Assembly: GCF_012843435.1 (NCBI RefSeq) | Contig: NZ_JABAFC010000006.1 | Coordinates: forward strand, 1 to 64,000 | DNA: 64,000 bases | Reading direction: 5' to 3' | Source of the DNA: Psychrobacillus sp. BL-248-WT-3 | GTDB lineage: Bacteria; Bacillota; Bacilli; Bacillales_A; Planococcaceae | Shown: positions 27,741 through 50,846 of the stretch, one piece after another | How the letters are laid out: each line of letters starts with the position of its first letter | Position numbering within the stretch: position 1 is the first letter of the stretch | Notes under the pieces: model-generated | What the model was told of the DNA's origin: nothing | Databases searched by the model: none | What the model saw: only the letters and a program-made list of their open reading frames with translations | Translations under genes and position numbers: made by a program

Positions 27741-29555
27741 TTATTTACCAGCTTTAAAAGCCTCTAAGTACTCATCTACCTTGGCAGCATCTGCCTTAAG
27801 CTCGTTACCCGTTTCTACAAGAGGACTTACAGTTGATACTGCTTTTTTCTTGTTTCCTTGGTAATAGTTAATGATTTCATCCTGGTTGATCGAGTACAGA
27901 ATCGCTTTACGTAAAGATTCGCTTTCTGATACATCACGATCTTTTGTATTAAATAGCAGATAACTTACAGCATTGCTATCGTTTTTCTGAAGAGTTAGCT
28001 TGCTATCATCTTCTACTAATTTGTACTTTGTTTCAGGAACTCCATTAAATATATGAATCTCTCCGTTGCGAAGAGCCGATAGCGCGCTATCTGCATCTGC
28101 AATGAAACGAACAGTTACGTTTGCGATCTTCGGCTCGTTTTCAGTTCCTGGCATATAAGCTGGGTTTTTTACGAATACTGCCTCATAATCATTTTTGTGG
28201 GATAAGATGTAAGGCCCACTAGCATATAACGTATTATTGTAAGAAGCACCTTCCGTTACCGTATTTTGATCCCCGTAAGGAATATCTTTGTTTACATCGA
28301 AGGTAGCAACATCATAAGTGTTGATGCTCTCCACTTGTTTTTTAGACACAATCCCTGCAGATTGATGAGCCAAATAATTTAAAACTTGTGGGAATGGATT
28401 AGTTGTTGTAATTTTAACTACTTGATATTTCCCTTTCGCTGCATCTGCTTGTGTTTTATCTGTCACTAGCTCTGAAATTGCTGTATCAACATTATTTTCT
28501 AGAGCTTCCTTCACAGTAGCATCACTACCCGATTGCTTCACGTCAAGCTCTGAAAGATCTGAAACGATTTCAATGTTTTCCATGCTTTCGTGTAAGCTAT
28601 ATGTGCGATGATCTGGAACTGATTTACTGTCTTTTGCACGGTTCATCGAGAATACAACATCCTCTGCCCCTACGCGTTCTCCCGTATCAACTGCTTTTTT
28701 ATCTGTTACGGCTGCAAAGTTAATATCATCTCTTAGTAAGAAGTAATAATCTTTATTGCCATCTGCGATTGCATGGTTCAGTGAAAGAGAACCATCGGAA
28801 ACAACTTTATCATCGTCTGTTAAGTTAACTAAACGAACATACATATTTGTATTTAGTGTATTAATAGAACCATCATTTCCTTTAATAGGATCTAATGAAG
28901 TTAAGGATGCAATCCCTTGTTGCATGATCAGTGGTGCAGAATCTCTTTTAGAAGCATCTACAAAGTCAATTGTTTCCCAAGCGATTGCACGAGATTTAGC
29001 CAATCTCACAGTATCCGCATTCAATACTTCTTTATTTACTCCTTGCGCTTTAAAAGAATTATATAACGGTGCAATATATGCTTTTTCTAGGACTAAAAGA
29101 TCCTCGAACTCTTTATATGTTTTTGTGTACTCTTCCGGTGTTTCTGTGCTAGCCTCTTCGATTAGCTCATCGATTTTCTTGTCAGACATAATGCTGTTAT
29201 CACCGTCTGTTTTGAAAAGCGCACGTACTGCATAGTCGGGGTTACCCGTTACAGTCGTCCAGCTAGATAAAGCTAAATCATAGTTTCCTGCATCTTTTTG
29301 CGCAGTGAAGCTACCGTAGTCTGGTTGAATATTTAATTTCACATCAAAGCCATTTTTGATTAACTGGTCACGTACAATATTCATGTCCGCTTCCCCAGTG
29401 CTCATCCCTAACAGCTCAATTTCTACCTTACCCTGCTCTGTTTTAGAATCAGATTTGTCTGTTGCTTTATCCACGTCTGATTTTGTGTTTACACAACCTG
29501 CCAAGATTAAAACTAGCGTTAACAATAAAGCTAATAATCCTTTTGTATTCTTCAT
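27741..29555 (-). CDS. Peptide-type ABC transporter binding lipoprotein, apparently circularly permuted
   Basis: 604 residues with a lipoprotein signal (LILAGC, Cys about 21). It belongs to solute-binding family 5 (DppA/OppA), but the order is wrong. Residues about 45-200 match the usual C-terminal lobe (an IVRDQLIKNGFDVKL helix, NYDLALSSW, DKKIDELIEEAS, AYIAPLYNSF). Residues about 205-604 match the usual N-terminal and middle parts (SLTSLDPIKG, MYVRLVNL, YYFLLRDDINF, AEDVVFSMNRA, YLLFNTKDRD, LRKAILYSINQDEII) and stop where the C-lobe would begin. Last gene of a three-gene operon with two permeases. The substrate is probably a peptide or another oligomer. Confidence 0.85.
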   Translation of the reverse strand: MKNTKGLLALLLTLVLILAGCVNTKSDVDKATDKSDSKTEQGKVEIELLGMSTGEADMNIVRDQLIKNGFDVKLNIQPDYGSFTAQKDAGNYDLALSSWTTVTGNPDYAVRALFKTDGDNSIMSDKKIDELIEEASTETPEEYTKTYKEFEDLLVLEKAYIAPLYNSFKAQGVNKEVLNADTVRLAKSRAIAWETIDFVDASKRDSAPLIMQQGIASLTSLDPIKGNDGSINTLNTNMYVRLVNLTDDDKVVSDGSLSLNHAIADGNKDYYFLLRDDINFAAVTDKKAVDTGERVGAEDVVFSMNRAKDSKSVPDHRTYSLHESMENIEIVSDLSELDVKQSGSDATVKEALENNVDTAISELVTDKTQADAAKGKYQVVKITTTNPFPQVLNYLAHQSAGIVSKKQVESINTYDVATFDVNKDIPYGDQNTVTEGASYNNTLYASGPYILSHKNDYEAVFVKNPAYMPGTENEPKIANVTVRFIADADSALSALRNGEIHIFNGVPETKYKLVEDDSKLTLQKNDSNAVSYLLFNTKDRDVSESESLRKAILYSINQDEIINYYQGNKKKAVSTVSPLVETGNELKADAAKVDEYLEAFKAGK

Positions 29556-29582: not shown

Positions 29583-31073
29583 TTAATCCATTCTCGGATC
29601 AAATGCATCTCTAAGTCCATCGCCTAAAAAGTTAAAAGATAATACGAGACCTATAATTGCAAGGCCAGGTATAATCGCCAAATAGGAATTAGACTCTAAA
29701 TAAGTACTACCTATTTTTAAAATATTGCCCCATTCAGGTATATGTGGCTCTACTCCAAGACCTAAGAAGCTCAAGCTACTCGTTGCAATTACTGCCGTAC
29801 CTATTGTAAGTGTAGCTTTGACAATCATAGGTGCAAGGGAATTTGGAACAATTTGCTTAAAGATGATCGATAGATTGGAAGCCCCTAAAGCCCGGGCAGA
29901 ATCTACATATTCGTAATTCGAGACCATCATCACATTCGCTCGCATTGTTCGAGCATATGTCGGAATAGAACCAACACTCAAAGCTAGTATAAGATTCGTA
30001 GTATTTGCTCCGAATGCTGCAATAATAGCAATGGCAAGTAATATTCCTGGAATTGCGTACAAGATATCAAGCAAACGCATAATGATGTTATCTGTACGTT
30101 TGCTGTAATATCCAGCCAACGCTCCTAATGCCCCTCCCACTATGAATGGTATTAACGTAGAAGCAAAGCCTACAATTAGAGAAATTCTCGCCCCGAAGAT
30201 AATTCGAGAAAATACATCTCTGCCATAATTATCTGTACCGAACGGATATTCCAAGCTTGGCGACTGAAGCAGTGCCTCATAGTTATTCTCTACAGCCATA
30301 TCATAGTCAAAAGTAAAACGGCTAGACACAGATAACGCGAACATAAGAACGATAAAGAACATTCCTAGTATAGCTGTAGAATTACGAGTGATTTTATCCC
30401 ACATTGTGTTCCACTTCACTATTCGTGACAGACTGTTACTACGCGTTTTAATGATTAAGCTAACGCCAAGCAGTAAGTTGAAAATATTACCTGTCAACGA
30501 AGTGATAATTAATACAATCGCTATGCCCTGCATCCACCCAGGCGCGCCTTCATCACTGACGTACCTAGCTACAGCCACCAAAGTAAACACTTGGATAATT
30601 AAAATGACGAGTAGAGCGCCCATTGCGGGTAAAAAAGTGTCCGACACATACGGTTTAAAGAGATTTAATGCAGAAATAACTAGAATAAAAAGCTGGGTGA
30701 AAATCATCCAAATGCTGAAAGTGTATTCTGGTGTTTTCTTCTCCTTGATCAAATTAAAACCGAATGATGCTACGAAAATATTACCAATTAATAGAGCGGT
30801 TACTTGGATATAGCCAAGCCTTCTAGTAGCATTTTTTAAATGCCCTAAACTCAAAAGCTCTCGTTTCATTTTCCAGATTATAAAATACTGAAACGCTGTA
30901 AAAAATGCATATATAGCTGAAATACTACCAGCAATTGGCTTTAACGTACCCATATCAAAATTAAAGCTATTAAACAATAAAACTATTGTCAGTAGAATAG
31001 ATAATACTCCAGCAAAGTTAGCCTGAGTATATTCTCGTGACAGCTTTAGTGCATGTTGTTTTTTAGATACCAC
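29583..31073 (-). CDS. Peptide-type ABC transporter permease (DppC-like) with long N-terminal membrane extension
   Basis: 496 residues; ordinary DppC/OppC proteins have about 300. The C-terminal part (about 225-496) is typical: FGTDNYGRDVFSRI, GALAGYY, LDILYAIPGILLAIA and the ATPase-coupling stretch SARALGASNLSIIFKQIVPNSLAP. The first 220 residues add about six membrane helices of no recognised family. The GTG start has AGGTG five bases upstream. It lies between the other permease and the binding-protein gene with short gaps, so one operon. Confidence 0.88.
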   Translation of the reverse strand: MVSKKQHALKLSREYTQANFAGVLSILLTIVLLFNSFNFDMGTLKPIAGSISAIYAFFTAFQYFIIWKMKRELLSLGHLKNATRRLGYIQVTALLIGNIFVASFGFNLIKEKKTPEYTFSIWMIFTQLFILVISALNLFKPYVSDTFLPAMGALLVILIIQVFTLVAVARYVSDEGAPGWMQGIAIVLIITSLTGNIFNLLLGVSLIIKTRSNSLSRIVKWNTMWDKITRNSTAILGMFFIVLMFALSVSSRFTFDYDMAVENNYEALLQSPSLEYPFGTDNYGRDVFSRIIFGARISLIVGFASTLIPFIVGGALGALAGYYSKRTDNIIMRLLDILYAIPGILLAIAIIAAFGANTTNLILALSVGSIPTYARTMRANVMMVSNYEYVDSARALGASNLSIIFKQIVPNSLAPMIVKATLTIGTAVIATSSLSFLGLGVEPHIPEWGNILKIGSTYLESNSYLAIIPGLAIIGLVLSFNFLGDGLRDAFDPRMD

Positions 31074-31088
31074 TTTTACACCTACTTC

Positions 31089-32513
31089 TTACAGTTGCTT
31101 CATCTTAGATTTTATACGCGGATCAAAAAATGCATATAAAATGTCGATGAGCACGTTCACTAAGGAAATGGTTATTGCAATATAAATAACTCCACCCATA
31201 ATGGCTGGGATATCGGGTATAAACTGTTTGTCGACAATATAACTCCCAATACCACTAATATTGAATACTTTCTCTGTAACAGCTGCTCCACCTAGCATCC
31301 CACCAAACAGTAGACCGATAACCGTAATGATTGGAATCATTGCATTTCCTATTGCATGCTTCCACAGCACTTGGCGTTGGTTTAAGCCTTTTGCTTTTGC
31401 AGTAATTATATAATCCTCATTTATAATTTCTAATACGGATGAACGTGTCATTCTCGCTACCGAAGCAGTAAGACCTGTTCCGAGCACAACTACAGGCATT
31501 ATAATCGACAAATAGTTTTGAGGACTATAGGTTGCTGGAAGCCATTGTAGCTTAATAGAAAAGTTCAAGATAAAGATAAGCCCCTGCCAGAAGTTAGGAA
31601 TGGACAAGCCGATTAAAGCAATGAACATAAATGAATAATCTAAGAACGAGTTTTGTCTTGTTGCAGATATAATCCCTACTGGTATCGCGATTACTACAGC
31701 CATCACTAAAGAAAAGATAGCAATCATTAGCGTAACTGGAAACTTGTTCGCAATACTTGTTGCGACATCTTCATTTCCCGTAAAGGATGCTCCTAAATCA
31801 AATGTTACGATGCCTTTTACCGAGTTCCATAACTGATGTAAATAAGGTAAGTCTAACCCGTGCATTTGGTTGAATGCAGCAATCTGATCCTTCGTTGCAC
31901 TTTCCCCTAAAAGATTGGCAGCTGGATCAAATGGTGACAGGTATAAAATAGTAAATACTAGAATGGAAACACCCGTTATCACAAAGACACTCATAATAAG
32001 TCTCTCAAAAATAAATTTACTGAACGCATTACTATATATACCTAACAAAAGGTACATCAGTAAGCCTGGTATAAATGAAATAATGAGAAATGTTGTATTT
32101 TCTAACAGACTTTGAAAATAGGATGTATAAGTAAGAGGCTTCGTGCCTTTTAACTGATGTATTTCTTCCATTTCAGTAGATACAAGCTTTTCTATTCGAT
32201 CTTCTACTAGTTTATTTACTTCCGCCGTCATTTTTTCTTTATTAATTTTTTCATTAAAAAAGGTATGCTTTCGTTCATATTGTTCCTTATACTCTTCGTA
32301 CAGTTCCTCTCGCACTCCCCTTGCCTCTAGTGCAGACTTTAAATCGCTTTTTAAGGAAGAATGAGGATCCTTCTGTTTTTTTAAATAAAAGAGTATAAAA
32401 GTAATTATATGAACCGGCAAACCAAGTAAAAATAACAAAATACTATAGAAGGAATGATGTTGTAGTCTTCCGTAGGTAAAACTAAATGCGTTGGAAGAAA
32501 GTTTTCTTCCCAT
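31089..32513 (-). CDS. Peptide-type ABC transporter permease (DppB-like) with N-terminal extension
   Basis: 474 residues against about 310 for ordinary DppB. Residues about 165-474 carry the family features (LSPFDPAANLLG, LGASFTGNEDVATSI, ARMTRSSVLEI, AKAKGLNQRQVLWKHAIGNAMIP, FFDPRIKSK). The first 160 residues hold one hydrophobic segment (about 22-44), a charged, probably coiled stretch (about 48-125) and another membrane helix (about 135-155). First gene of the operon, starting ATG after GGGGGAT. It diverges from the fused ATPase gene, sharing an intergenic promoter region. Confidence 0.88.
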   Translation of the reverse strand: MGRKLSSNAFSFTYGRLQHHSFYSILLFLLGLPVHIITFILFYLKKQKDPHSSLKSDLKSALEARGVREELYEEYKEQYERKHTFFNEKINKEKMTAEVNKLVEDRIEKLVSTEMEEIHQLKGTKPLTYTSYFQSLLENTTFLIISFIPGLLMYLLLGIYSNAFSKFIFERLIMSVFVITGVSILVFTILYLSPFDPAANLLGESATKDQIAAFNQMHGLDLPYLHQLWNSVKGIVTFDLGASFTGNEDVATSIANKFPVTLMIAIFSLVMAVVIAIPVGIISATRQNSFLDYSFMFIALIGLSIPNFWQGLIFILNFSIKLQWLPATYSPQNYLSIIMPVVVLGTGLTASVARMTRSSVLEIINEDYIITAKAKGLNQRQVLWKHAIGNAMIPIITVIGLLFGGMLGGAAVTEKVFNISGIGSYIVDKQFIPDIPAIMGGVIYIAITISLVNVLIDILYAFFDPRIKSKMKQL

Positions 32514-32754
32514 ACTAAATCCCCCCTCTCCATATTGTATAAATCCGAGTGGTATAGTATAGTATAGATTCGAACTACCATTAAGTCAACGCAAATTATT
32601 TAGTCTATTTAGAGTAGGGTTAAATGCGCCACTAATGTGCGTGTTTAGTCTTCTTTTTTGTAGAAACCGCTCATATTACTTTAAATATACGCTCTCTAAC
32701 AACAGAGCATGAATCATAAACAATACGAAGATTTCATTCAGATAGGTGGTTTTC

Positions 32755-34491
32755 ATGGAAACTATTTTAAAAGTAGAGGATTTACAGATTTCATTTTTAA
32801 CAAATGATAATGAATTTGAGGCTGTTCGAGGTGTTAGCTTTGAGGTTAAAAAAGGAGAAACATTGGGCATAGTCGGAGAATCTGGAAGTGGAAAAAGCGT
32901 CACGGCCCGTTCCATTATGCGCCTTTTACCTTCTCCTCCTTCCTTCATGAAAAATGGTTCCATTGAGTTTTTAGGGGAACAACTCCACACAAAAACAGAG
33001 AAGGAAATGGAAGCTATTAGAGGAAGAGATATCAGTATGATTTTCCAGGATCCGATGACCTCTTTAAATCCAACCATTCGTATCGGCATTCAAATAGCAG
33101 AAAGCCTTATTAAGCACCAAAAGCTCTCGAAAAAAGAGGGAAAGGCACAAGCCATTGAGATACTCAAGCTTGTAGGAATTAAAAATAGTGAAGAACGTTA
33201 TAACCAATATCCGCATGAGTTTTCTGGTGGTATGCGTCAAAGAGTTATGATTGCCATTGCTTTAGCATGTAAGCCTACTCTACTTATTGCAGATGAGCCA
33301 ACTACTGCGTTAGACGTGACCATTCAAGCTCAAATACTAAATCTAATGAAGGATATGCAGAAGCGCTTTGGGACCTCAATTATTTTAATTACTCATGACC
33401 TTGGAGTTGTCGCTGGAATGTGTGACCGTGTAGCTGTGATGAAAAATGGAGAAATCGTTGAAACAGGAACTACCGAAGAAATTTTTGCTAACCCAAAGCA
33501 TGACTATACGAAAAAACTATTAAATGCCTTACCTCGTTTAGACGAGAAGAAAAGGCCGAAGAAACCTCCTCTTCGTTCTATTGGATTAGAAAATGGAAAG
33601 CCACTGCTGGAAGTTAAATCTTTAAAACAGCATTTTCAAGTAAGTCGCGGGAATGTCTTAAAAGCGGTTGACGATATTAGCTTCTTTATAAAGCCCGGGG
33701 AAACTCTTGGTCTTGTAGGAGAATCAGGCTCAGGTAAATCTACTACCGGTCGGGCGATTCTTCGATTGCATGAACCTACAGATGGAGATGTGCTATATCA
33801 AGGAATGGCCATTAATCGTTTAAGTAAAAATGAGCTTAAAACGATGCGTCGGCATATGCAAATCATCTTCCAAGACCCCTACTCTTCCTTAAATCCTCGT
33901 TTAAAGGTGCTAGACATTATTGGGCAGGCGTTAGATATTCATCGTCTGAGCAAAAATGCAGAGGAGAGAAAGAATCGGGTAGAGGAATTACTAGAATTGG
34001 TAGGCTTAGAGCCCTCGCATGCATTACGTTATCCACATGAGTTCTCTGGTGGACAGCGACAACGTATAGGTATCGCTCGTGCACTTGCGGTTGAGCCTGA
34101 TTTTATCGTCTGTGACGAACCTCTATCGGCTTTAGATGTTTCTATACAAGCACAGATTGTAGAGCTCCTGGAGGATTTACAGCACAGACTTGGCTTAACA
34201 TACTTATTTATCGCACATGATCTGTCCATGGTAAAACATATAAGTGATCGCGTTGCTGTCATGTATTCTGGAAAAATTGTAGAGCTAGCAGAAAGTGAAG
34301 AGCTTTATACGAATCCACAGCATCCGTACACTAAGTCTCTCTTAGCAGCCATTCCAATCCCTGACCCAAAAGTAGAGGCCAAGAAAAAGCGTGTGCTCAT
34401 GGAAGAGTCTAATGTTACTGACAAGTATCAATTAAAGAATTCCGAGCTTGTTGAGGTATCCAACGGTCACTGGGTAGCTATCCCTAAGTAA
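32755..34491 (+). CDS. Fused double ABC ATPase (DppD-DppF type)
   Basis: 578 residues with two complete ATPases: the first about 1-260 (Walker [11 protein letters not shown], signature [20 protein letters not shown]), the second about 285-560 ([30 protein letters not shown]). Each is followed by the peptide-transporter C-terminal segment ([20 protein letters not shown]). It powers the divergent permease pair. ATG at 32755 chosen over a GTG three codons earlier, since AGGTGG is then correctly spaced. GsiA-like fusions are known in other bacteria. Confidence 0.93.
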
Positions 34492-34565
34492 GGTAGCCCT
34501 TGAAATTGTTTAAAGCCCATGTTAAACTTATTTTTATTATATTTAGATAATTTAATATTTTATTT

Positions 34566-34664
34566 CTTATCAAGAGAGACGGAGGGATTGGCCCTATGAT
34601 GTCTCAGCAACCAGCCTTTAAGGTGTGGTGCTAAATCCAATAGACATTAAGTCTTGAAGATAAG
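34566..34664 (+). promoter_or_regulatory. SAM-I riboswitch (S-box)
   Basis: The S-box landmarks appear in order: CTTATC-AAGAG at the 5' side, GGAGGGATTGGCCCTATGA, CAGCAACC, AAGGTG, GTGCTAAATCC and the closing GAAGATAAG. The 3' strand of P1 with following bases (ATAAGAAGA, 34660-34668) can instead pair with TCTTCTTAT (34695-34703) to form an antiterminator. High S-adenosylmethionine should favour the terminator at 34687 and switch off the gene at 34782. Confidence 0.95.
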
Positions 34665-34686
34665 AAGAATGACTTCAATATATATT

Positions 34687-34781: not shown

Positions 34782-35888
34782 ATGACAAATCAATTACTTG
34801 TAAAAACACCTTTCAAAGCAGATCACGTTGGAAGCTTCCTGAGACCGGAACGTTTAAAGCAAGCAAGGGCTCAATTTGAACAAAAAGAAATTTCCCAAGA
34901 GCAGCTAACTCAAGTGGAAAATGAAGAGATTATTAAACTCATAGAAAAACAGAAGGAAGCTGGATTACTTTCTATTACAGATGGAGAATTTCGTCGAAAA
35001 TGGTGGCATTTCGATTTTTTAAGCGGACTAGATGGCGTTGAATTTTATGAAACCGATCAAGGACTCTCCTTTAAAGGGGTGCAAACAAAAGCTCATGGTA
35101 TTAAGGTGACAGGAAAGATTGGCTATAGTACCCATTACATGATTGAGCATTTCAAGTTTTTAAAAGAAGCAGCTGGGGATGCTGTTGTAAAATTTACTAT
35201 TCCTAGTCCGAACATGCTTTATTATCGAGCTGCAATTGAGGAAGGTGTGTATAACAATGATGAGGAATTATTTTCTGACTTAATCACAGCTTATCAAGGG
35301 TTTATCCAAGCAATTTATGATGAAGGCTGTCGTTATCTTCAAATTGACGATACTTCATGGGCTACCTCCTTTTCCGAGGAAGGCCTCGCTTCCTTAAAGG
35401 ACAGGGGGTTATCGCTAGAGCAAGCCTTATCCCTTTCTGCAAGGGCTATTAATGAGTCTATCTCTAAAAGACCAGCCGATATGCTAGTGACCATGCATAT
35501 TTGTCGGGGAAATTTCCGATCCACTTATATTACAAGCGGAAGCTATGAGTTAGTATCAGAAACTATATTCGGTGGATTACATGTGGATGGTTTATTTTTA
35601 GAATTTGACGATGAGCGCTCTGGTGGTTTCGAGCCGTTACGACATGTTAATCGAAAGGATTTAAATATTGTCCTAGGGCTGATTACGTCTAAGCATGGAG
35701 ACCTAGAGGAAGAAGAATTAGTTAAAGCTCGCATCGAAGAAGCTACTAAATATGTACCAAAAGAACAGCTTTGCTTAAGTCCTCAATGTGGATTTTCTTC
35801 TACTGAGGAAGGAAACATATTAACTGAAGAGGAACAATGGGCAAAAATTCGCCATGTAGTCCAAATAGCAAAGGATGTCTGGAACTGA
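34782..35888 (+). CDS. yxjG: Cobalamin-independent methionine synthase-like protein (YxjG/YxjH type)
   Basis: 368 residues, corresponding to the C-terminal catalytic barrel of MetE. The zinc ligands are visible: His in TMHICRGN and Cys in SPQCGFSS near the C-terminus, with FRADHVGSFLRP-like opening (PFKADHVGSFLRPERL). B. subtilis YxjG and YxjH are of this size and also S-box controlled. It probably methylates homocysteine, or a related thiol, to form methionine; the methyl donor of this short class is not certain. Ribosome site AGGTAGGA. Confidence 0.9.
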   Translation: MTNQLLVKTPFKADHVGSFLRPERLKQARAQFEQKEISQEQLTQVENEEIIKLIEKQKEAGLLSITDGEFRRKWWHFDFLSGLDGVEFYETDQGLSFKGVQTKAHGIKVTGKIGYSTHYMIEHFKFLKEAAGDAVVKFTIPSPNMLYYRAAIEEGVYNNDEELFSDLITAYQGFIQAIYDEGCRYLQIDDTSWATSFSEEGLASLKDRGLSLEQALSLSARAINESISKRPADMLVTMHICRGNFRSTYITSGSYELVSETIFGGLHVDGLFLEFDDERSGGFEPLRHVNRKDLNIVLGLITSKHGDLEEEELVKARIEEATKYVPKEQLCLSPQCGFSSTEEGNILTEEEQWAKIRHVVQIAKDVWN

Positions 35889-49213: not shown

Positions 49214-49321
49214 TAATTGCACTCCTCTCATATAAAGTTTGAGTAATCTAAATTATTTTTATTCTATTTTATATGCCGAGCTAGAAATTAACCAAATATA
49301 TGGTATGATATTGTAAATTAA

Positions 49322-49608
49322 ATGCGATGAAGAGAAGAGTAAGTAATTTAAAGTCTTCCAAAAGAGAGTCCTGGTAGCTGAAAAGGGATGAAGAAGGAAT
49401 TACTGAAACAAGCCTCTGAGCTTCACATAGGACTCGTATAAAACGGGGTATGATGTGACGGGTGCTCCTGTTATAGAGCTAAAGTATAAGCATTTTCTAT
49501 GCCGTACTTGAAAAGGCTCTTTTGGTGACAATGGGGCAAACTGGGGTGGCACCACGACATGTTAATCTCGTCCCCAAGACAATCGTCTTGGGGGTGGGAT
49601 TTTTTTAT
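49322..49608 (+). promoter_or_regulatory. T-box leader with terminator
   Basis: A tRNA-sensing T-box: stem I with AGAGAGTCC and GGACTC, the T-box sequence GGGTGGCACCACG (49544-49556) and a final terminator CCCCAAGAC/GTCTTGGGG (49572-49591) with T run. In stem I, AGTA and GAA (49405-49407) flank complementary AGTAATT/AATTACT, which places the specifier at 49408-49410, ACA (Thr); a one-base shift would give AAC (Asn). Uncharged tRNA should switch on the MFS gene that follows. Confidence 0.93.
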
Positions 49609-49640: not shown

Positions 49641-50846
49641 ATGAATAAGCGGAAAGTTAGAGCTCTTTATTTAGGTGTAGTCGGACTAGCTAACATTGGA
49701 GGGTGGATTTATTTACTTGCCCTTAATCTAATTATTTTGGACAAAACAGGGTCTGTATTAGCTGTAACTGGATTATATATAATTAAACCCTTCGCTAGTA
49801 TGTTAATTGGACCTTGGGCTGGAAGTATGATTGACCGTGTTTCTACTAAGCATTTGATGATATTTTTAGATATTATCCGGGCTATTCTCGTAGCCTCTCT
49901 GCTTTTTGTAGATTCCTTATGGGTTATCTATTTGCTGGTGTTATTTATACAAATGGCAGGTGCCATATTTGAAACAAGCTCATTTACTTATATGACTTTA
50001 TTGTTACCAGAAGAGGATCGAAACAAGTTTAATGCTGTGTTAACCTTTGTTCATTCGGGAGCCTTTGTGACAGGACCTTTTCTGGCAGGTATATTATTTA
50101 TGCTTGCACCACTTGAATTTTCATTAGTAATAAATGTATTAATCTTTATTTGCTGCGGTATATGGACTATATTCCTGCCTAATATACTTAATACGATCCC
50201 TGAGGTGAAAAAACACCTCCACGTAAAGGAGGTGCGAGAAGATTGGTATGCTGTTTGGAACTTCAGTAAAAAATACTTATCCTTTTTCTTCATTTATATG
50301 ACCTTCCAAGGGACGATGCTAGTAACTGCAGCATTAGATTCCACAGAAGTTGCTTTTGCAAAGGAGGTGCTCTTATTGACGGATGCTGCCTATGGATCCC
50401 TTGTTAGTATAGCTGGACTGGGATTTTTATTAGGCGCAATATGTACAAATTTGTTGGTAAGGTTTCTATCAGCTAAAGCAATGATGGGTGTAGGGACATT
50501 TTTTGTAGCAAGTGGATATTTTATTTATAGTCTCTCAACTTCCTATTTTGCAGCAAGTATTGGGTTTTTCGCATTATCATTCAGTCTTTCCATAGCCAAT
50601 ACTGGTTTTATGACATATATCCAATCACGAATTCATTCTAATATGATGGGACGCATCACTAGTTTATATGAGATGATTTCTAGTTTTGTTCAAATAGTAA
50701 CAGTCCTTCTATTCGGACTAGTTGCTAGCTTGGTATCCGTCAAAGTAGTGGTCATAGGCGGCTCCATTCTCATGCTACTTGGTTCATGTTATTTAATCCT
50801 TATTACATGGAGAATATCTAAAACAAGAGGTTTTGAAGCCCTTTAA
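49641..50846 (+). CDS. MFS transporter, T-box controlled
   Basis: 401 residues, twelve membrane helices. Between helices 2 and 3 lies the MFS loop GSMIDRVSTKHLM. The protein resembles the MefA/YxlH-like MFS_3 subgroup often labelled macrolide efflux. Its control by an amino-acid-sensing T-box, however, argues for movement of an amino acid or a precursor. Ribosome site GGGAGGAA six bases before the ATG. It ends adjacent to the convergent methyltransferase gene. Confidence 0.9.
   Translation: MNKRKVRALYLGVVGLANIGGWIYLLALNLIILDKTGSVLAVTGLYIIKPFASMLIGPWAGSMIDRVSTKHLMIFLDIIRAILVASLLFVDSLWVIYLLVLFIQMAGAIFETSSFTYMTLLLPEEDRNKFNAVLTFVHSGAFVTGPFLAGILFMLAPLEFSLVINVLIFICCGIWTIFLPNILNTIPEVKKHLHVKEVREDWYAVWNFSKKYLSFFFIYMTFQGTMLVTAALDSTEVAFAKEVLLLTDAAYGSLVSIAGLGFLLGAICTNLLVRFLSAKAMMGVGTFFVASGYFIYSLSTSYFAASIGFFALSFSLSIANTGFMTYIQSRIHSNMMGRITSLYEMISSFVQIVTVLLFGLVASLVSVKVVVIGGSILMLLGSCYLILITWRISKTRGFEAL

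Follow-up and report, generated by a model that had tools for sequence, protein, structure and literature searches.

The window analyzed here is a stretch of 64,000 nucleotides from Psychrobacillus sp. BL-248-WT-3 (contig NZ_JABAFC010000006.1). Three genes follow one another on its minus strand. The GisB-like permease comes first (31089–32513; 474 aa, with a Pfam BPD_transp_1 match at residues 276–468), followed by the GisC-like permease (29583–31073; 496 aa, BPD_transp_1 at residues 314–495). The last of the three is a 604-aa ORF with an ATG start codon (27741–29555) encoding a GisD-like solute-binding lipoprotein of family 5. Its sequence begins with a signal peptide and the lipobox LAGC (residues 1–21; 29493–29555, minus strand), in which Cys21 is the predicted lipid anchor and is invariant in our alignments A1 and A2. 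A GisA-like protein with two ATP-binding cassette domains is transcribed divergently (32746–34491, plus strand). This ATPase gene is adjoined in the window by a gene for a metE-like methionine synthase (34782–35888, plus strand), which is preceded by a SAM riboswitch (34564–34666, plus strand; Rfam, 89.9 bits). The 97 loci scanned contained no metE-like gene within their limited flanks, and we do not count the riboswitch or metE as part of the importer system. Farther along the window, a T-box leader (49318–49578, plus strand; Rfam, 100.3 bits) precedes the gene of an MFS-like transporter of 401 aa (49641–50846).

Just upstream of the GisB-like gene is a conserved imperfect palindrome, a candidate operator (32534–32561, minus strand), and palindromes resembling TATACTATACCnATCGGAATTATACAAT occupy this place in many genera. 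With at most two mismatches, ATACCNNTNGGNWTTA was present at 69 of 95 loci and at 0 of 95 when the sequences were reversed; these loci are related to one another, and two pairs share identical genes. We take the palindrome to resemble CymR boxes. In the window organism's own genome, occurrences with up to one mismatch did not outnumber those of the backwards control (63 versus 70), and a matrix built from the promoters gave no good match at four cysK-like loci. We did not retain CymR-type sulfur control of the operon. The accessible parts of PMC2869319, PMC3519770 and PMC3828012 show no CymR consensus sequence.

The first-pass annotation had claimed that the segments of the binding protein stand in reversed order, with C-terminal-lobe motifs in residues of about 45–200 and N-terminal and middle motifs in residues of about 205–604. 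Searched whole against Pfam SBP_bac_5 (PF00496), the protein scored well above the cut-off (E 8.8e-40, 137.4 bits), giving two matches in swapped order. Residues 42–203 alone (28947–29432, minus strand), the C-terminal segment in canonical family-5 proteins, matched profile positions 301–367 (E 4.9e-7; 29.6 bits, slightly below the curated cut-off of 32.4 bits). Residues 204–604 alone (27744–28946, minus strand), the canonical N-terminal and middle segment, matched positions 12–274 with 118.7 bits. The end of the profile thus matches the N-terminal segment and its start the remainder, just as the split-profile check had anticipated, and the proposed boundaries hold at residues ~42–203 and ~204–604. 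The 604-aa protein does not have the canonical segment order of PF00496 and is therefore a permuted, not a canonical, member of that family.

Rotation of the chain gave the same picture. Our canonical-order profile was built from 10 proteins (E. coli DppA and OppA, seven proteins from the own genome and one from L080), with GsiB held out. One of the seven own-genome proteins, L008 (G000:C1:211870-212289), starts with other sequence: it is a 547-aa protein whose family-5 sequence stands behind an unrelated N-terminal part, presumably a DNA-binding regulator resembling SgrR. The native window protein matched the profile as two domains, positions 379–521 first and 60–365 second (47.6 and 96.3 bits), and when the mature chain was rotated to start near residue 192 these became one domain covering positions 60–521 with 147.8 bits. 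Homologs from G291 and from Brevibacillus (L163) behaved in the same way, and for the control, GsiB, the highest score fell at its native start or right beside it. PDB sequence searches agreed, with split matches for the native protein to 1uqw (22.9 and 14.7 bits) and 5u4o (18.4 and 27.7 bits) and one long stretch each for the rotated protein (46.0 and 50.7 bits, respectively). A MAFFT alignment of the rotated protein with GsiB (512 aa) and DppA (535 aa) was colinear. The longest stretch without a counterpart in these two proteins is about 44 residues (334–377), so of the earlier claim of a reordering at family-normal length, the reordering stands, but the window protein carries extra stretches relative to both.

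AlphaFold2, run with 45 sequences, predicted a single fold for the whole protein (pLDDT 80.9, pTM 0.80), as the first-pass annotation had expected. In this model, the chain is cut between the helix at residues 590–603 and the strand at residues 44–51, and the former termini are joined near residues 194–207. In the 50 rows that VIA-align listed, the part of the model from residues 177–208 to 602–604 was matched to the N-terminal region of known chains, up to positions 321–396, with Z values of 18.6–20.7. In the 50 rows listed for residues 42–203, the C-terminal part of the chains was aligned (Z 3.8–4.7), and all of these were named as ABC-importer or solute-binding proteins. Since these Z values are low, we count them only together with the sequence evidence. 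The cover by the two pieces is complementary: 1–340 and 342–507 of 1dpp, and 3–321 and 322–489 of 1uqw. A separate model of residues 42–203 was poor (pLDDT 61.2, pTM 0.36), which is expected if this segment needs the rest of the protein to fold and is no proof by itself. Foldseek found no match for the isolated segment at E <= 0.001, the best being NikZ at 5.2e-3. The predicted structure is consistent with a two-lobed family-5 fold, weakly so for residues 42–203. Taking sequence and model together, we are practically certain that the 604-aa binding protein is circularly permuted. Its family-5 fold is ordinary; its topology is not.

The permuted order is conserved across several Bacillales families. 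Counting near-full-length colinear homologs, we found the protein in 9 of 19 genomes of the genus (own genome included) and in 103 of 250 genomes of the taxonomic family (106 had a match, less one remnant and two canonical fragments). In the order it was found in 107 of 261 genomes (108 less one remnant, in a sample overlapping that of the family), and in the class in 34 of 398 (35 less one fragment). Only 4 of 398 genomes in the phylum sample had a match, all four within the class. Relatives are encoded by 299 stretches of the named collection; among the best 80 of these 299, which were kept, the protein is near full length in 79, the exception being L115, whose called ORF starts late. Some of these loci repeat one genome, and two pairs have identical genes. 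Carriers among the named loci include Psychrobacillus, Sporosarcina, Lederbergia, Cytobacillus, Neobacillus, Viridibacillus, Planomicrobium, Paenibacillus and Brevibacillus. The closest relatives among the best 80 are from Psychrobacillus (82–84% identity to the window protein); the most distant branch, L071–L073, is near full length at 39–40% identity.

A few cases are irregular. In G189 the gene is interrupted by a TAA. Two other genomes retain mere remnants of the permuted gene: G583 (L075, 8186–8833) has a 215-aa ORF that covers just the last third, and G210 (L086) has a matching stretch of 75 residues. These remnants suggest decay of the permuted gene in some lineages. Separately, a contig labelled Arthrobacter (L100, NZ_JADHDX010000017.1) carries a Bacillales-like operon whose binding protein is 76% identical to the window protein, and this contig is likely mislabelled or contaminated.

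Could the unusual order be an assembly or annotation artefact, or a truncated protein behind an unrelated extra domain? The leading segment, taken alone, does fall just short of the Pfam curated cut-off, as such a reading would have it. Against this stand the E value of that same segment, the exclusively importer-type names among its 50 listed structural rows, with their C-terminal part aligned, and the lack of any canonical order at the window locus among the assemblies examined. Because colinear homologs turn up in so many genomes of the family (103 of 250) and in all but one of the 80 named loci, an assembly artefact is not the explanation; conservation and open frames rule it out along with a pseudogene, and we give this whole reading a negligible probability.

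Fusion is a different matter, in that it would yield the same order of parts by placing the C-lobe fragment of one family-5 gene before the N-lobe of another. The best canonical relatives do differ by segment, L080c for the leading and L003 for the trailing one, all of these segment-wise scores being low, and the accessible text of PMC4990184 shows that the authors of the TpMglB-2 study raised a similar idea for their protein. However, the two segments of the window protein are complementary with almost no gap or overlap (profile positions 60–365 and 379–521), and 5u4o, which is also the top match of the family profile, takes up both pieces in one match. We consider two parent genes improbable and keep to circular permutation of one. 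The permuted order may have arisen once, before the Bacillales families parted, or may have spread between them; duplication and trimming that left the signal peptide before the new start would be a plausible route.

The neighborhood of the gene points to a characterized importer. The four-gene set is present at 94 of 97 loci, and the ATPase gene is divergent, as it is in the window, at 93 of the 94 loci with all four genes. In one f22 genome (L074, 6892–13792), two separate same-strand ATPase genes lie between the permease genes and the binding-protein gene, and there is no divergent fused ATPase. The L071–L073 branch has the layout gisA (divergent), gisB, gisC, binding protein and ggt, with the Ggt Pfam match confirmed in L071. 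As described in the accessible part of PMC10355420, S. aureus SAUSA300_0200-0204 (gisABCD-ggt) has this same arrangement, and mutant growth is poor when GSH or GSSG is the source of sulfur; the portion of PMC12510641 available likewise reports that growth on GSSG depends on Gis. An S. aureus record (L167, NZ_CP077929.1) resembles L071 in its ATPase (78% identical), first permease (75%) and the 5' part of its binding-protein gene (75%), where C-lobe motifs run into PTLDPIR, the start of the N-lobe. This record is rearranged and the gene is broken, so the S. aureus order is seen over the 5' part only. It is a short linear 'plasmid' record that gives the impression of a gis locus assembled as an inverted repeat, with pieces of the ATPase, permease and binding-protein genes recurring in opposite orientation.

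Given the gisA(divergent)-gisBCD-ggt layout of L071–L073 and the same segment order in the S. aureus record, the window protein is most probably orthologous to GisD, the binding protein of the published glutathione importer GisABCD. Features in common with GisD of S. aureus are the gisA(divergent)-gisBCD layout, the permuted order, as seen in the 5' part of the gene in record L167, and the lipoprotein signal. The importer in the window is very probably of the GisABCD type. It differs from GisABCD-Ggt of S. aureus in that ggt is part of the operon there and is absent from the window operon, the own genome's single Ggt gene being on another contig; the window protein is also only about 40% identical to those of L071–L073. 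The available text of PMC10355420 reports a complete Gis system, after a Ggt filter, only in staphylococci related to S. aureus. The word 'circular' is absent from its main text, and permutation is not mentioned in the accessible passages.

Two canonical glutathione-binding proteins bear on the ligand. GsiB of E. coli (1uqw) was the top PDB match in single-sequence searches with both native and rotated protein, and its partners GsiC and GsiD are the nearest permeases among the three E. coli systems compared. It differs from the window protein in being canonical in order, periplasmic and without a lipobox in its sequence, and GsiC and GsiD lack the extensions described below. GbpA of Haemophilus parasuis (3m8u), a family-5 fold with glutathione as ligand, matched residues 206–604 of the window protein with a VIA Z of 19.9 and again has the canonical order. 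According to the accessible part of PMC3295651, DppA Asp408 contacts the ligand's amino group and Asp432 is its equivalent in GbpA. When aligned after rotation, the position of DppA Asp408 (436 in the precursor) and GbpA Asp432 is occupied by Val102 in the window protein. This valine is invariant in A1 and A2, and the family therefore departs from the DppA/GbpA pattern, as does GsiB, which has Ser there. Val102 neither proves nor excludes glutathione.

We lean slightly towards glutathione, GSSG or a close relative as the putative substrate in the window organism. A quite credible competing view, which we hold to be somewhat short of an even chance, accepts the same permuted protein and assigns it another substrate (short peptides or sulfur compounds) outside the ggt branch, with glutathione specificity confined to the staphylococcal branch. 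The rarity of ggt beside the operon (3 of 97 loci, all in the L071–L073 branch), the identity of about 40% between branches and the absence of the DppA/GbpA Asp from the permuted family fit this view. It sits less well with the four-gene set and divergent ATPase common to both branches, with GsiC and GsiD as the nearest of the compared E. coli permeases, and with GsiB, which binds glutathione and likewise lacks that Asp.

Both permeases carry N-terminal extensions. E. coli GsiC, DppB and OppB align to the GisB-like permease from residue 166 only, leaving an extension of ~165 aa with two hydrophobic segments (approximately residues 1–165; 32019–32513, minus strand). GsiD, DppC and OppC align to the GisC-like permease from residues 221–225 only, leaving ~220 aa with about five hydrophobic segments (approximately residues 1–220; 30414–31073, minus strand). 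Extended permeases are also found in L071, related to GisABCD, where the GisC-like extension is about half as long. The GisC-like extension was present in 26 of 299 class genomes, all 26 of which also carry the permuted protein, and in 2 of 299 phylum genomes, both again with the permuted protein. Nine further class genomes positive for the permuted protein in the 398-genome sample are not among the extension matches, which come from the smaller 299-genome sample, and some or all of the nine may lie outside the latter. A canonical-order ancestor with the same extended permease was found in none of the 299 class and 299 phylum genomes; these are samples, so absence is no proof.

Our overall reading is that the protein is very likely a permuted family-5 lipoprotein of a GisABCD-type importer. 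The chain would start inside the C-lobe, reach the old C-terminus, pass through a short linker into the old N-terminus and end in the C-lobe loop where a canonical chain continues. The first-pass annotation had suggested altered tethering and docking; tethering would be changed because the new arrangement puts the lipid anchor in front of the C-lobe, which would be the lobe by which the binding protein is held. The ligand, a small peptide and most probably glutathione, glutathione disulfide or a relative of these, would then be enclosed between the lobes and delivered to the GisBC-like permease, with the divergent GisA-like ATPase supplying the energy. Any functional link between the permease extensions and the permutation is speculation. 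We find it conceivable, if rather doubtful, that GisD-type proteins are a separate permuted branch of the peptide/nickel class in which receptor and permease extensions co-evolved, with the receptor held by its C-lobe and the extensions taking part in tethering or docking. If true, this would be a working arrangement that we have not seen described for Opp/Dpp importers.

A precedent comes from Treponema pallidum, whose sugar-binding lipoprotein TpMglB-2 (Tp0684) is permuted; its crystal structure has been solved, and a 'Cluster Bc' was proposed for it (PMC4990184, accessible text). Like the window protein, it serves an ABC importer and its circular permutation is natural, and permuted relatives are likewise reported there in Gram-positive bacteria, so natural permutation of an importer receptor is already known in kind. 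In contrast to the window protein, which belongs to family 5 and is cut in the C-lobe, TpMglB-2 has the sugar-binding fold of Cluster B, and three strands of its N-lobe have been shifted to the C-terminus. By the available part of the published description (Cluster B fold, N-lobe strands at the C-terminus), the window protein does not belong to Cluster Bc. Our literature search, which reached only a minority of subscription papers, preprints, supplements and database notes, turned up neither an account of the present permutation nor a family-5 case with a different cut site.

After TpMglB-2, the window protein and its relatives are a second case of natural permutation in an ABC-importer receptor; the two cases are independent, and both concern lipid-anchored proteins. 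The TpMglB-2 authors proposed that membrane anchoring may favor permuted topology (PMC4990184, accessible text), and with a second lipid-anchored case, the suggestion that anchoring favors new termini becomes testable. The finding also changes the reading of a genetically characterized nutrient transporter of S. aureus. The GisD and GsiB sequences were said, in the accessible part of PMC10355420, to indicate different recognition mechanisms; this mismatch may partly reflect a comparison made in the same order, and pocket residues need to be mapped after rotation. Homology models and annotation of many Bacillales 'ABC transporter substrate-binding protein' entries of the GisD kind would be affected as well.
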